Shown here: positions 3,414-20,625 of the stretch, in pieces | How the letters are laid out: every line of letters starts with the position of its first letter | Numbering within the stretch: position 1 is the stretch's first letter | DNA from: a virus | Length of the DNA: 21,141 nucleotides | Virus record (IMG/VR): IMGVR_UViG_3300028393_000385 | Location: 1-21,141 of that record | Strand: one strand, 5' to 3' | The notes under the pieces: generated by a model | Seen by the model: only the letters and a program-made list of their open reading frames with translations | The model's database searches: none | What the model was told of the DNA's origin: nothing | Program-made: the position numbers and the translations under genes

Positions 3414-3575
3414 TTATTTTATTCCTTTACAAATTTGTTTATCGTCCGATGTGTCCCATAGTTTGGGATTAACCATATGACAGGTATGTTTTCTACCTGT
3501 TCGTTGAACAAAGTTTTTTAACTTACTGTTGTGATTATTTTCAACCTTCCAAGGACATTCCTTACAACAAGACAT
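3414..3575 (-). CDS. Small Cys-rich protein, DUF6283-like
   Basis: 53 residues from the ATG at 3575. A longer frame starts 30 nt upstream but would overlap the preceding gene, whereas this ATG lies directly after that gene's stop. It has a CCKECPW cluster near the N terminus, an HTCH motif in the middle and a C-terminal CKG, the spacing of small phage zinc-binding proteins such as DUF6283 (assignment from memory, moderate confidence). Probably binds one zinc ion; role unknown. Lies just upstream of clpP. Confidence 0.72.
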   Translation of the reverse strand: MSCCKECPWKVENNHNSKLKNFVQRTGRKHTCHMVNPKLWDTSDDKQICKGIK

Positions 3576-3786: not shown

Positions 3787-3800
3787 AATTTTAAAATTTG

Positions 3801-3874
3801 TGAAGAAGACGGGAATCGAACCACGTGGCACAAGATGTTTCAAACCTTTGCTCTACCGACTGAGCTACTTCTTC
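3801..3874 (-). tRNA. tRNA-Phe(GAA), first copy, bulged T-stem
   Basis: Acceptor GAAGAAG/CTTCTTC, D-arm GCTC...GAGC, anticodon arm AAGGT-TTGAAAC-ATCTT giving GAA, discriminator A. The 5' side of the T-stem has six bases, ACG(T)GG, against CCCGT, so one U bulges out. The second Phe copy (10713-10788) has the same bulge. Confidence 0.85.
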
Positions 3875-3884
3875 ATATAAGTTA

Positions 3885-4290
3885 AAGGTCGTCTTCCCTG
3901 TCCGTGTGGTATTTCACGAGACGACCTTTGGTGTAGTATTTACCATCAATAGTATTTCTTCGGATATGCCCCAAGAGAGTGAGGCCGTAGTAACCATCCA
4001 CCGAAGACTTGTACTCTCACCCATATTACAGGGTTACCCTCAGGACATCTTCTCCATACCCCCAAAGTTACCTGGGTGGTCTCACTCGTAAGAAGAGTGT
4101 ATATTGTAGAATTGTCCAGTATTTCTACAACTTGTGGATTGTATTACAACCATTTAAGGCCCCTAACCCCTTCCATCCATAATGGGGAATCCTATTTAAC
4201 TCGTGTAGCCTCCCCCATAGCCTTGAAGCTCTCAAGTCAGGTTCACACGCCATAACAGTCGGATATCTCTGTTAATCGTGGGGTCTTATT
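3885..4290 (-). ncRNA. Large structured non-coding RNA with pseudoknot
   Basis: About 400 nt without a credible gene between the 4296 gene and tRNA-Phe, transcribed with both. Strong helices: 3885-3894 with 3919-3928 (10 bp), 4104-4111 with 4123-4130 (8 bp), TAACAG/CTGTTA closing a loop with ATATCCGA near 4256-4277, and CTTGA/TCAAG. The helices 3957-3963/4001-4007 and 3975-3980/4013-4018 interleave, giving a pseudoknot. It lacks a T-arm, so it is not tmRNA, and I could not match RNase P conserved regions. No family recognised. Size and context resemble phage ornate RNAs located beside tRNAs. Confidence 0.6.
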
Positions 4291-4295
4291 TTTAA

Positions 4296-4664
4296 TTAGA
4301 TTACTCCGACCTCAGACATTACCTCGTCAGCACAATCCATTATAATATCTGAGTGAATTTCACCAGTAGCACTTACGAATGCGTCTCTCAAAGCATCTTC
4401 GTCAATACTTGGGATGATTAAACGACCATCAACTTCAAATGTTACCACATCATTAGCTTCTAATGAATTAATCATTTCATCAAAGATACATTCATTAATT
4501 TTACCGGTGTATTCAATCAAGAAATCTTCTAATTGTTCTCTTGTGAAAACAATATCACCTTCAACTTCAACACCTGCTTCAGATTTAACTTCATTTAATT
4601 GTGATTGGATTTCAATTAATTTCTCAATCAACTCTTCGTTTTGTTTTTTGTTCTTCTTAGCCAT
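4296..4664 (-). CDS. Acidic hypothetical protein with N-terminal coiled coil
   Basis: 122 residues. A Lys-rich start (MAKKNKKQ) leads into a likely coiled coil (about 9-30, ELIEKLIEIQSQLNEVKSE) and then a strongly acidic, helix-rich body. No catalytic motif, membrane segment or family seen. First gene of the operon leading to the structured RNA, tRNA-Phe and clpP. The host-type promoter leaves a leader of about 25-30 nt. Confidence 0.75.
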   Translation of the reverse strand: MAKKNKKQNEELIEKLIEIQSQLNEVKSEAGVEVEGDIVFTREQLEDFLIEYTGKINECIFDEMINSLEANDVVTFEVDGRLIIPSIDEDALRDAFVSATGEIHSDIIMDCADEVMSEVGVI

Positions 4665-4728: not shown

Positions 4729-5328
4729 TTATCTAACCAAACTTACAAAACCTCTTTGGTAATGTGGGGTTCCTTTTTCATCACGGTAATACATCTTCCA
4801 AGTGTATATACCTGACTCACAATAGTATCCACTGTTATTCACATTACCAGTCCAATATTGTGATAATGATTCAATAACACAAACCATTTCACCCCACTGC
4901 GTATAAATCTCTAATCGTGGATTAAATACACTGGTTCCCTTGAAGGAAAATATATCATTCAACCCATCGTTGTTAGGTGAAAACGAATTGGGAACATAAA
5001 GTTTATGACAGGTAGTTGTGGTAATAGTTAAAGACGCTGTGTCAGTACTACACCCATTTAAATCCACACCATACACTTCAATCAAATGACTATCAGTGGT
5101 ATCATCCCAAGTCAATGAAATATCATTGTCGGACTCAACCTGTCCCACACTATCTACGGTCCAGTAATAAACAACATTGTCTATGTTCTCAACAGAATAG
5201 TTATGTGTCTTAAACTCTGAACACATATCAAGTACATTACCATCGTGTGTTATCGTTAGTGGTAAGGTGTCACACTGTCCAAAGAAGTGTGAGGGAATAA
5301 ATAATAATACAAATAAAAGTTTTTTCAT
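4729..5328 (-). CDS. Secreted protein with type IX secretion (type B, gliding-type) C-terminal domain
   Basis: 199 residues. Signal peptide 1-18 (MKKLLFVLLFIPSHFFGQ, then C). Residues about 45-105 look like one PKD/Ig-like repeat ending in a GC...TASLTI strand. Residues 111-199 match the gliding-motility-associated C-terminal domain (TIGR04131-like): VPNSFSPNNDGLNDIF, then IYTQWGE, a W-x-G region, SGIYTWKM and the final RGFVSLVR. In Bacteroidetes this domain sends cargo through the type IX system to the surface or medium. The mature part has room for little else, so a binding or surface role is more likely than an enzyme. Its presence in a phage segment is unusual; host origin is inferred. 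Own promoter, near-leaderless. Confidence 0.9.
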   Translation of the reverse strand: MKKLLFVLLFIPSHFFGQCDTLPLTITHDGNVLDMCSEFKTHNYSVENIDNVVYYWTVDSVGQVESDNDISLTWDDTTDSHLIEVYGVDLNGCSTDTASLTITTTTCHKLYVPNSFSPNNDGLNDIFSFKGTSVFNPRLEIYTQWGEMVCVIESLSQYWTGNVNNSGYYCESGIYTWKMYYRDEKGTPHYQRGFVSLVR

Positions 5329-6232: not shown

Positions 6233-6308
6233 TACCCCCTGAGAGACTCGAACTCTCACTAAAACATCGTTCTAAGCGATGCGCGTCTGCCTATTCCGCC
6301 AAGGGGGT
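6233..6308 (-). tRNA. tRNA-Leu(TAG)
   Basis: Acceptor ACCCCCT/AGGGGGT, Leu-like D-arm, anticodon arm CATCG-CTTAGAA-CGATG giving TAG, T-arm GAGAG-TTCGAGT-CTCTC, discriminator A. The variable region is only about 6-7 nt, short for a class II Leu tRNA. Its 5' part encodes the last codons and stop of the HNH gene. Confidence 0.88.
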
Positions 6309-6944
6309 ATTTAAAACTTCTTTTTCGTAAAATTTAACCCATTTACGAATTGCATTATCACTAACATTATATTTTCTACCAATCGCACTATATCCAAATT
6401 CATTAATCTCGTCAATTAACTTTTGGTGGGGTGGTCTTTCAACTTTTCTCGGTCTTTCTTTTTTTATTTTAACTTTTTTGACTTTGTCTTTTTTATGTAA
6501 TTTTTTTGTATTAGAGTAATTGTGAGTCTGCATATGACAATTAGAACATAATATCTGTAAATTTTCTAACCGGTTGTTGAATCTGTTTTCGTCAATATGA
6601 TGTAGTTCTAATGGTATTGGTTTATCCATCCAACTATCTAATCCACAAATCTCACATTTTTTTTCTTTAACACCCTGTCTAATTAACTTTATTCTTAATT
6701 TAGACGCGATTATATTCTTACCATTCTCAGTATATTCAGTATAATGAGTCATTTGTTCGTAATGTGGAATACCTTTACGATTCCGATTCCCTACATAGAC
6801 GATATCATACTTTTTCAAATAACGATTAAGAGTGTCTTGTTTAATACTAAGTAAACGACACATATTTGTTTTTGGTTCGTTATTTTCAATCATTTCTAAA
6901 ATTTTAGAAAGATTTTCTTTAAATTTTTTTTCAGTCTTATTCAT
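6291..6944 (-). CDS. HNH homing-type endonuclease with N- and C-terminal HTH modules
   Basis: 217 residues from the ATG at 6944. An ATG 9 nt upstream exists, but it lies inside the conserved promoter element, and the chosen start gives the same 8-nt spacing as in the two other endonucleases. N-terminal HTH-like segment (about 8-50); HNH domain with C97/C100, LELHHID (residues 113-119), N128, C133/C136 and H137/H141; C-terminal HTH (about 171-210) with RPPHQ...GYS...VSDNAIRKW. The last part is almost the same as in the DUF559-type nuclease at 905-1804, showing module exchange. The final codons and TAG stop lie inside the 5' end of tRNA-Leu, so the gene has inserted tightly against the tRNA and reads into it. 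Confidence 0.93.
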   Translation of the reverse strand: MNKTEKKFKENLSKILEMIENNEPKTNMCRLLSIKQDTLNRYLKKYDIVYVGNRNRKGIPHYEQMTHYTEYTENGKNIIASKLRIKLIRQGVKEKKCEICGLDSWMDKPIPLELHHIDENRFNNRLENLQILCSNCHMQTHNYSNTKKLHKKDKVKKVKIKKERPRKVERPPHQKLIDEINEFGYSAIGRKYNVSDNAIRKWVKFYEKEVLNTPLAE

Positions 6945-6952
6945 AATACTCA

Positions 6953-6965
6953 TTTATTATAAATA
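6953..6965 (-). promoter_or_regulatory. TATTTATAATAAA promoter candidate of the HNH gene
   Basis: The identical 13-mer found before the other two endonuclease genes, ending 8 nt before the chosen ATG at 6944. It decides the start: the upstream ATG (6951-6953) overlaps it. Confidence 0.55.
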
Positions 6966-9684: not shown

Positions 9685-9758
9685 AGAGGGTAGTCGGTCT
9701 CGAACCGACCCTATTTCACATTGGAAGTGTGATGCCATACCTACTAGGCGATACCCTC
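9685..9758 (-). tRNA. tRNA-Gly(TCC)
   Basis: Acceptor GAGGGTA/TACCCTC, anticodon arm TCACA-CTTCCAA-TGTGA giving TCC, T-arm GTCGG-TTCGAGA-CCGAC, discriminator U as in Gly. Its 5' end overlaps the TGA stop of the GIY-YIG gene by 2 nt. Confidence 0.93.
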
Positions 9759-10434
9759 ATTTTAACATTGTTCTCCCTAATTTCCATTCGGGGTACAAAT
9801 GTATGTCATTTTTTTTGATTTTAATATTCTTCTCACCATTAGTTAACCAACAAGTACCAAATTGTGAATTCTTTTCACCTTTTTGGTTTATTGAATTTTT
9901 CATTCCTATAATTTCTTTACTCTCTTCAGTATGTGTTCTCCCATAAAAACCCCAAGGACCTTCGTTCTCATATTTATCTTTAAGAGTTTTAGATATCTTA
10001 TCATAATATTTCTTCTTATCTTCTTCACTTAAACCATTATGGAATTTTTTAGATATCTCACTTTTAAAGTTTTTACCATATTTTTGTAGTAATATCTCAT
10101 CCGTCTTTCTTCTACCCTTTTTAACCCCATCAGGACTTATAAATCCACCTGACCCTCCAAAGGCAATATTAAGACACTTTTCGTCATTTAGTAATTCTTG
10201 ATTAACAATCTCTTTTTCTTTTTCCTTTAAAATTTCTCTGTTTGGGTAAAAATCAATTATTTCCATTTTGAAGTTTTCTTTACCATATTTCTTCAAACTT
10301 CTTTTAATTCTGTAACCACTACCCATATAACCATCATTTAGGTCATTTGTCGAGTGCATTCCAACATAAAATTCGTCATTTAATAAATTTACAATTTTAT
10401 AAATGTAATGGGTTTTGTAAGGTTTTCTCGGCAT
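9757..10434 (-). CDS. GIY-YIG homing-type endonuclease
   Basis: 225 residues. N-terminal GIY-YIG nuclease: HYIYKIVN (9-16), FYVGMHST (22-29), then YMGSGYRIKRSLKKYG with the catalytic Arg region and later Glu. The middle has a NUMOD-like GVKKGRRKTDEIL segment and a THTEESKE motif; the end (NSQFGTCWLTNGE..., EWKLGRTM) is a DNA-binding tail common in phage GIY-YIG enzymes. Expected to cut a specific site in related phages that lack the insertion. The TGA stop (9757-9759) overlaps the 5' end of tRNA-Gly(TCC). Preceded by the shared TATTTATAATAAA element exactly 8 nt before the ATG. Confidence 0.93.
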   Translation of the reverse strand: MPRKPYKTHYIYKIVNLLNDEFYVGMHSTNDLNDGYMGSGYRIKRSLKKYGKENFKMEIIDFYPNREILKEKEKEIVNQELLNDEKCLNIAFGGSGGFISPDGVKKGRRKTDEILLQKYGKNFKSEISKKFHNGLSEEDKKKYYDKISKTLKDKYENEGPWGFYGRTHTEESKEIIGMKNSINQKGEKNSQFGTCWLTNGEKNIKIKKNDIHLYPEWKLGRTMLK

Positions 10435-19610: not shown

Positions 19611-20625
19611 CAAATTAGAAAAGCCTGAGATTATAGCTTATGTTAAGAAACTTTTGAAGGATTATTGTTTCCCTTCGTATCCACCACCTTTTGGGTAGTA
19701 TTTCTTAGTGACGGTATTTTAGGTGTACCACTCCTTAAGGTTTGAATTACTCTATCAATACTTAACTCTTTCCGAGGTTGCCACCCCAGTTCGTCCTTGC
19801 GGGACTAAAGGTTTTTCTTAACAATACACATTGACTTGGGGTCTCTGTATGCAATGAACGGCTCATTACTATGTAGTCACCTTTCACTCAAACCTGATGG
19901 ACACTTTTCCTTTGTTATTTTGTAATAATTTTAGGTTTGTGTTGTAGATGTGTCAGAGTAGTGGTCCAACGTAAGCTCCGTCTCCTTTTGAGAAACGAAA
20001 TACTAAACTACTCCGTGAAGTGTCCCCACCTCCATATTCCAAGATTACTTCATAAAGAGACCTTGGTAGGTCTTCCTTAGGGATAGTAGCGGCACCACTC
20101 GTTCTCTATCTTACCTTTCGGTTTTAAGTCCTCTATCATATTGGGACCCGCAATTATGTAACTGGATGGTCACATTTCTTACAGAGTTCCTATGGGTTAT
20201 TCTTATCGTTCTTCCGAACTCAACCTGACAATCTACTTTGCCATGTCACCCTACCATTTTCCCTACGAAGTTATCCTCGGTACTAAAGGTTTGGTGATAT
20301 CCCACTTGTGTACTTGAGTTCAATCACCCTTACGGGGTTTCAAACCGCAGTTTCCTCAACACGAGGGAAACCACTTTATCCTACTTTCGTAGTTTATTTA
20401 AGGACCATACACGGCCCATTATCATTTATCAGATTAAATGTCTCATAATCAACCCGAAGGTTTCATAATCAACTACTGAATGGATAATCTTTTTGTTTCA
20501 AAGAACGTTTCGGACATTTCCGATTTGTTTTACAAATTTACGACTTTTTTTTCTTTCTGTCAAGTAGTTTGTAAACTTTTTTTTTGATTTAACTACCGAG
20601 TATCTTTCATTCCCTATGAGTGTTA
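19611..20625 (-). ncRNA. Giant structured non-coding RNA (GOLLD/ROOL-like size class)
   Basis: About 0.95-1.0 kb with no credible gene on either strand, bounded by two host-type promoters and a strong terminator. Minus-strand hairpins: AACC-UUCG-GGUU at 20451-20462 (cUUCGg), CUAC-GAAA-GUAG at 20381-20392 (GNRA), a GTTTC..GGAAAC stem at 20350-20371, AGACC/GGTCT near 20057-20072, GTCC/GGAC near 19793-19805, a 7-bp long-range helix 19956-19962 with 20007-20013, and GGTGAT/ATCACC 20293-20298 with 20323-20328. UUCG and GNRA loops appear only in the minus strand, fixing the direction. GOLLD and ROOL RNAs are of this scale, phage-associated and often near tRNAs, but I cannot align to their consensus; it may be a new family. 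The start is near 20527 or 20629 depending on the promoter. Confidence 0.7.
20533..20564 (-). promoter_or_regulatory. Host-type promoter P1 of the large non-coding RNA
   Basis: Minus strand: -33 CTTG then ACA (20561-20564 and on), 20-nt spacer, -7 TAAATTTG (20533-20540). It combines the Bacteroidetes elements with a TTGACA-like upstream hexamer. Confidence 0.8.

Follow-up and report, generated by a model that had tools for sequence, protein, structure and literature searches.

A structured RNA between a protein gene and tRNA-Phe

Do the roughly 400 nucleotides that separate a small protein gene from tRNA-Phe in a tRNA-rich virus record specify an RNA, and if so, how might that RNA work? The window (the whole stretch of DNA analyzed here) is a 21,141-bp virus record whose genes lie mostly on the minus strand and which carries more than 20 tRNA genes. 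The initial annotation, made from this one sequence, proposed a structured RNA of about 400 nt at 3885-4290, between a coding gene and tRNA-Phe. The analysis bears out the RNA, now placed on the minus strand at 3882-4287, together with its flanking genes:

4296..4664, minus strand: gene for a 122-aa protein, upstream of the RNA
3882..4287, minus strand: the whole RNA, beginning at a conserved 5' AAGACCCCAC and finishing with the 3' hairpin (boundaries from alignments A1 and A2)
3800..3874, minus strand: tRNA-Phe, immediately downstream of the RNA (ARAGORN and Rfam)

Relatives were gathered through neighboring proteins first and through conserved DNA patterns second. Some 50 viral contigs, the longest of 294 kb, contain the RNA, which measures 400-560 letters among these phages, with a core of about 365-500 nt. 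We aligned 18 sequences including the 3' hairpin (A1) and 37 distinct cores (A2). In the paired columns of A2, G.U cells exceed A.C cells by 188 to 7 across the 37 sequences, which identifies the minus strand as the sense strand. The minus-strand frames contain 6-9 stops, with a longest open stretch of 65 codons, and indel lengths among relatives are not multiples of three; the RNA is therefore not protein-coding.

A fold supported by covariation

Single-sequence folding energy gives z = -0.87 for the minus strand and z = -2.81 for the plus strand; thermodynamic stability is uninformative by itself, and our case is built on comparing relatives. A model of 70 pairs was assembled by hand from RNAalifold, covariation scores and inspection, and predicts a compact fold with 12 helices or more. 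On A2 (37 distinct copies) 98.9% of its cells are paired, against 36-45% in slid versions and 89.1% in shuffled versions, and 33 of the 70 pairs show compensatory changes on both sides. The model, derived from the same alignment on which it was scored, has a covariation score of 0.337, which falls to 0.150 after shuffling and to at most 0.091 with partners slid by 1-3 columns. Under a self-made null, in which the parsimony changes of each column are placed randomly on the tree, significant covarying pairs occur in H1, H3, H4, H5, H6, H9, H11, H12, PK1 and PK3, whereas H2 and PK2 barely vary and so carry no covariation test. Alternative long-range stems that RNAalifold offered on A2 were set aside because they clash with H4 and PK1, which covary better. 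The helices, in 5' to 3' order of the RNA, are:

4269-4273/4254-4258, minus strand: hairpin H1, both-side changes in 4 of 5 pairs; column pair 18-32 has E=2e-5 among 70 pairs, with a few rows apparently misaligned
4245-4248/4203-4206, minus strand: stem H2, nearly invariant, enclosing hairpin H3 and contact PK3
4237-4241/4221-4226, minus strand: hairpin H3, column pairs 51-68 and 53-65 covary
4185-4188/4167-4170, minus strand: hairpin H4, column pair 188-203 covaries
4158-4161/4148-4151, minus strand: hairpin H5, both-side changes in 3 of 4 pairs
4123-4131/4103-4111, minus strand: long hairpin H6, compensatory changes in 3 pairs, lowest E 2e-5
4095-4099/4083-4087, minus strand: hairpin H7, 100% paired, both-side change in 1 pair
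4031-4034/4019-4022, minus strand: stem H9, column pair 345-413 covaries, E=2e-5
4001-4007/3957-3963, minus strand: stem H11, 100% paired, compensatory changes in 6 of 7 pairs
3980-3985/3968-3973, minus strand: hairpin H12, 100% paired, both-side changes in 5 of 6 pairs
3920-3929/3884-3893, minus strand: 3' hairpin of type A, AAAGG...CCUUU, whose stem covaries

The 10-bp helix of the initial annotation is the stem of this 3' hairpin, and its other long hairpin is H6. In many relatives H9 bears an insertion, exchangeable and roughly 50 nt long, and an almost invariant motif, GGAYGGUUACUA, sits between H11 and H12. The structure is well supported, and this is a real structured RNA family that matches no catalogued family.

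These data bear directly on whether the locus is merely intergenic DNA or decayed genes that fold by chance and have no RNA function. The ordinary minimum free energy of the minus strand, the lack of the RNA in some relatives and an internally deleted copy would suit such an origin, but compensatory changes run throughout the 37 copies and loop partners co-evolve. Chance folding is contradicted by this covariation, would survive only if one alignment error were common to all helices, and is in our judgment scarcely credible.

Crossing helices and loop contacts

The initial annotation had placed a pseudoknot here, formed by two crossing helices, and only the first of these stands. The helix at 3957-3963/4001-4007 is H11 and covaries strongly. 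Its proposed partner, 3975-3980/4013-4018, is 68.5% paired across 37 sequences and no pair covaries significantly; three of its pairs are broken in 17, 17 and 21 of the 37 sequences and the remaining three in 3, 6 and 6. It thus fails the test that the annotation had itself named, a search for compensatory changes in an alignment of homologs. The stretch 3975-3980 is partly taken up by the local and strongly covarying hairpin H12. We reject 3975-3980/4013-4018 as a conserved feature, although sequences of the type A lineage, the window among them, could still form it. The other contacts are:

4114-4117 x 4043-4046, minus strand: PK1, GGAC in the H6 loop with GUCC, 99.3% paired
4279-4283 x 4213-4217, minus strand: PK2 (possible), CCCCA with UGGGG, complementary and invariant in 37 of 37
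4228-4229 x 4208-4209, minus strand: PK3, a small contact in which column pair 62-84 covaries, E=4e-5
3974-3978 x 3895-3899, minus strand: PK4, UCUCU in the H12 loop with AGGGA in the internal loop of the 3' hairpin, partners changing together

Covariation in PK1 is carried by column pairs 257-334 and 258-333 (E=0.048 and 0.003, respectively). Column pair 62-84 of PK3 is GC in 27 sequences, UA in 8, AU in 1 and GU in 1, and the neighboring 63-82 pairs in 33 of 37.

PK4, which in the window includes one U.G pair, involves a 3' module that exists in three types, the hairpins of types B and C replacing that of type A in other lineages. The type B hairpin is mostly followed by a U run. Pairing is possible in all 36 loci that have 3' hairpin sequence, with 4-6 pairs each, and the partners co-change across the three lineages. 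Type A combines the loop UCUCU (UCUUU in L100) with the internal loop AGRGA; type B mostly has GAAUC/GAUUC, with AAAUC/GAUUU in L122, GUAUC/GAUAC in L124 and GAAUU/AAUUC in L144; type C has the loop ACUC(A) and the partner (U)GAGU. Summed over the 16 distinct combinations, helix length comes to 80, whereas shuffling gives a mean of 57.2 and never more than 75 (0/5000), and within type B alone a fraction of 0.007 of shuffles reaches the observed value; these shuffles ignore relatedness, and the fractions are not strict probabilities. Reduced forms also occur. An internally deleted copy (L031/L099, the same contig) retains AAGACCCC on the 5' side together with the complete 3' module (H11, H12 and the 3' hairpin), and in L120 the type A hairpin stands alone at about 3475-3520, between a protein gene and tRNA-Arg, with the rest of the RNA absent.

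Association with tRNA arrays

Across the 37 loci, 450 tRNAs lie on the same strand as the RNA and none on the opposite strand. A tRNA directly abuts the RNA in 23 of 37 loci, with a gap of 0-2 nt in some, and in L124, L134, L145, L154 and L155 the 5' start of the RNA comes right after a tRNA. The protein neighbors are not constant. Only among type A loci (14 of 16) does the 122-aa gene adjoin the RNA, the encoded protein has no match in Pfam or PHROG, and among protein clusters within 5 kb none spans most loci of all three lineages. The clpP operon to which the initial annotation assigned the RNA is a fair description of the window, but what persists from relative to relative is the tRNA array.

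Could the RNA be a cis-acting leader or attenuator, controlling a downstream tRNA or gene with its 3' hairpin as terminator? That hairpin is terminator-like and often stands right before a tRNA. However, the identity of the next tRNA varies (Phe, Ser, Glu, Asp, Ile, Thr, Met or Leu), clpP or another protein gene follows in some loci instead, and we saw no covarying alternative pairing of the anti-terminator kind. Because what lies downstream is not the same gene or tRNA from one locus to the next, a cis-regulatory role is quite unlikely, and cis regulation of clpP in particular was rejected, the neighbor of the RNA not being constant.

Sequences upstream of the RNA were also inspected. A Bacteroidota-type promoter, TTG...N20...TACATTTG, lies about 20 nt ahead of the RNA in L150 and L153, and only 3 such sites were found in all, against about 1.6 expected. 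Two conserved elements recur upstream of the RNA. The first, of about 65 nt, reads GAGAGAACCGTGAGTYYGCGGATGGAAACAACTATAGGACGAGCATACGTCATACTC with small variations (L122, L133, L137, L139, L142, L144 and L156) and has no Rfam match in L144, L137 or L142 at E<=1e-4. The second, of about 80 nt, reads GTAGGATGAGGCCGCAATCGGATTCCTTTGAACAACGCGTGAGGGGCGGCTTTCACGATGTGGCTGATAACC, again with small variations (L136, L138, L148, L151, L152 and L153), and has no Rfam match in L148 at the same threshold.

The surroundings hold further features of their own. HNH and GIY-YIG endonuclease genes, possibly encoding homing endonucleases, lie inside the tRNA array of the window (6291-6953 and 9757-10434, both minus strand), and the product of 4729-5328 (minus strand) carries at its C terminus a CHU_C (type IX secretion signal) domain, which is unusual in a phage. 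One phage tRNA (L017, 2707-2792) scores just over the cut-off as tRNA-Sec and is called tRNA-Ser by ARAGORN, and another (L154, 2506-2580), called tRNA-Pyl, has a CTA anticodon and is possibly a suppressor tRNA.

Distribution and host

A covariance model built on the central part of the RNA (R1) detects the RNA once, and only once, in each of 13 carrier records and not at all in 17 other records, mostly relatives obtained through ClpP. Elsewhere in the window R1 gives weak matches (best 18.6 bits, against 167.8 for the RNA) that we take as chance. It finds none in 395 Bacteroidota genomes, a search with stricter filters and no positive control that is weak evidence of absence. An exact-pattern scan of GTDB genomes returned no match to the RNA, BLASTN with three divergent copies against 50,697 phage records returned chance matches only, and a literature search, mostly without subscription papers, found no description of it. 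Some close relatives (L004-L011), in which the same protein gene and tRNA-Phe are separated by just a short hairpin, lack the RNA, and it is thus dispensable. The cellular relatives of the window's ClpP in GTDB genomes all belong to Bacteroidota or its subgroups, which suggests this phylum as the host of the window phage; the carriers are large, uncultivated phages that probably infect Bacteroidota.

A working model

Our preference, a modest one, is for a free-standing, trans-acting structured phage RNA, processed from the tRNA array and most likely GOLLD/ROOL-like in its working. From the spacing and the shared strand, we infer co-transcription with the tRNAs and release by tRNA maturation. 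The RNA would be transcribed as one member of the array, with perhaps a promoter of its own in occasional cases, and its transcript would end in a hairpin that is terminator-like in many relatives. Enzymes that process tRNAs would cut at the neighboring tRNAs, probably releasing the RNA, whose predicted fold would be tied by the H6 loop with the strand before H9, by the 5' loop contact and by the H12 loop with the 3' hairpin. The lack of a constant protein neighbor, together with the elaborate fold, suggests that activity resides in the RNA itself, and by analogy it may act as a multimer or scaffold during infection.

To our knowledge, few large ornate RNAs have been described from bacteria and phages, and their functions are open questions. 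The present RNA adds a family with a covariation-supported fold, a single copy per phage and natural pairs of presence and absence. Its three exchangeable 3' modules, and the natural deletion down to the 3' module, provide an independent system for work on large RNAs in phage tRNA arrays.

Comparison with known RNAs

An Rfam scan, which the initial annotation had proposed as a check, places no family at 3882-4287 at gathering score and, when relaxed, gives one meaningless match at E=1.5. The annotation had also held that the RNA is neither tmRNA nor a recognizable RNase P, and both judgments agree with our searches. It resembles tmRNA and permuted tmRNA in its comparable size and its pseudoknots, but has no tRNA-like domain or tag frame (ARAGORN, in the window and relatives, with no tmRNA called at the RNA itself); a permuted tmRNA match in L154 reaches 18.9 bits against a cut-off of 47 and overlaps the adjoining tRNA. 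It resembles RNase P RNA in size and tRNA context, but no RNase P family matches in Rfam at gathering or relaxed thresholds. Covariance models of group I and II introns do not match either (window E<=10, L154 E<=5).

These searches weigh on a ribozyme, in which the conserved core with its invariant internal loops would catalyze cleavage or another reaction, such as maturation of the tRNA transcript. Large invariant unpaired segments between covarying helices, of which GGAYGGUUACUA is an example, several pseudoknots and the position inside tRNA arrays are consistent with catalysis. However, known families, RNase P and the introns included, do not match even at relaxed thresholds, we saw no precise insertion site or exon pairing, and empty sites are simply without the RNA. 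We regard a ribozyme as unlikely.

The window also contains a GOLLD RNA (RF02032) at 19622-20015 on the minus strand (318.9 bits), with a long 5' part reaching to about 20500. The GOLLD model (gathering cut-off 150 bits) does not match the RNA at 3882-4287 even at E<=10, and direct comparison of the two gave nothing with nhmmer at E<=100 and, as best blastn piece, 21 nt at E=0.014. GOLLD co-occurs in 9 of 14 tested carrier records, some of them near-identical and so not independent, and is also found in three tested records that do not have the new RNA (G015, G016 and G019). The two coexist and neither depends on the other, and this coexistence lets both be studied together. Another catalogued RNA, freshwater-1 (RF02979), was seen in two carriers (L028, 10573-10635; L148, 8418-8479).

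Both GOLLD and ROOL, which phages encode and which often lie close to tRNA islands, assemble into cages made of RNA alone (PMC12286853), and ROOL has a complex secondary structure with multiple pseudoknots and no known protein partner (PMC12286853). Ribosome binding has been reported from GOLLD pull-downs (PMC12286853). That report, and the location of the new RNA among the tRNA genes of tRNA-rich phages, would fit an RNA that binds host ribosomes, tRNAs or tRNA-processing enzymes as a decoy, chaperone or hijacking factor with host protein partners, but the new RNA is not tRNA-like and we consider such a translation-related role improbable. Tentatively, the RNA could represent a new class, unrelated in sequence to GOLLD and ROOL, of independently evolved protein-free RNA machine, whether cage, scaffold or ribozyme, in tRNA-rich phages of Bacteroidota, often alongside GOLLD in the same genome.

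For the trans-acting reading that we prefer, GOLLD and ROOL are the systems to be compared. GOLLD, like the new RNA, is a large structured phage RNA beside tRNA genes, but it is larger, many members exceeding 800 nt (PMC12286853), and its Rfam model does not match. ROOL shares a phage-encoded origin, a tRNA-island setting and pseudoknots, and the new RNA has no conserved protein partner gene; unlike ROOL, however, it is shorter, and the ROOL model gives no Rfam match to it at E<=10. The traits of ornate phage RNAs, namely proximity to tRNAs, a covarying pseudoknotted structure and no conserved partner gene, are all found in the new RNA, which belongs to neither GOLLD nor ROOL and would be akin to them by context and complexity alone.
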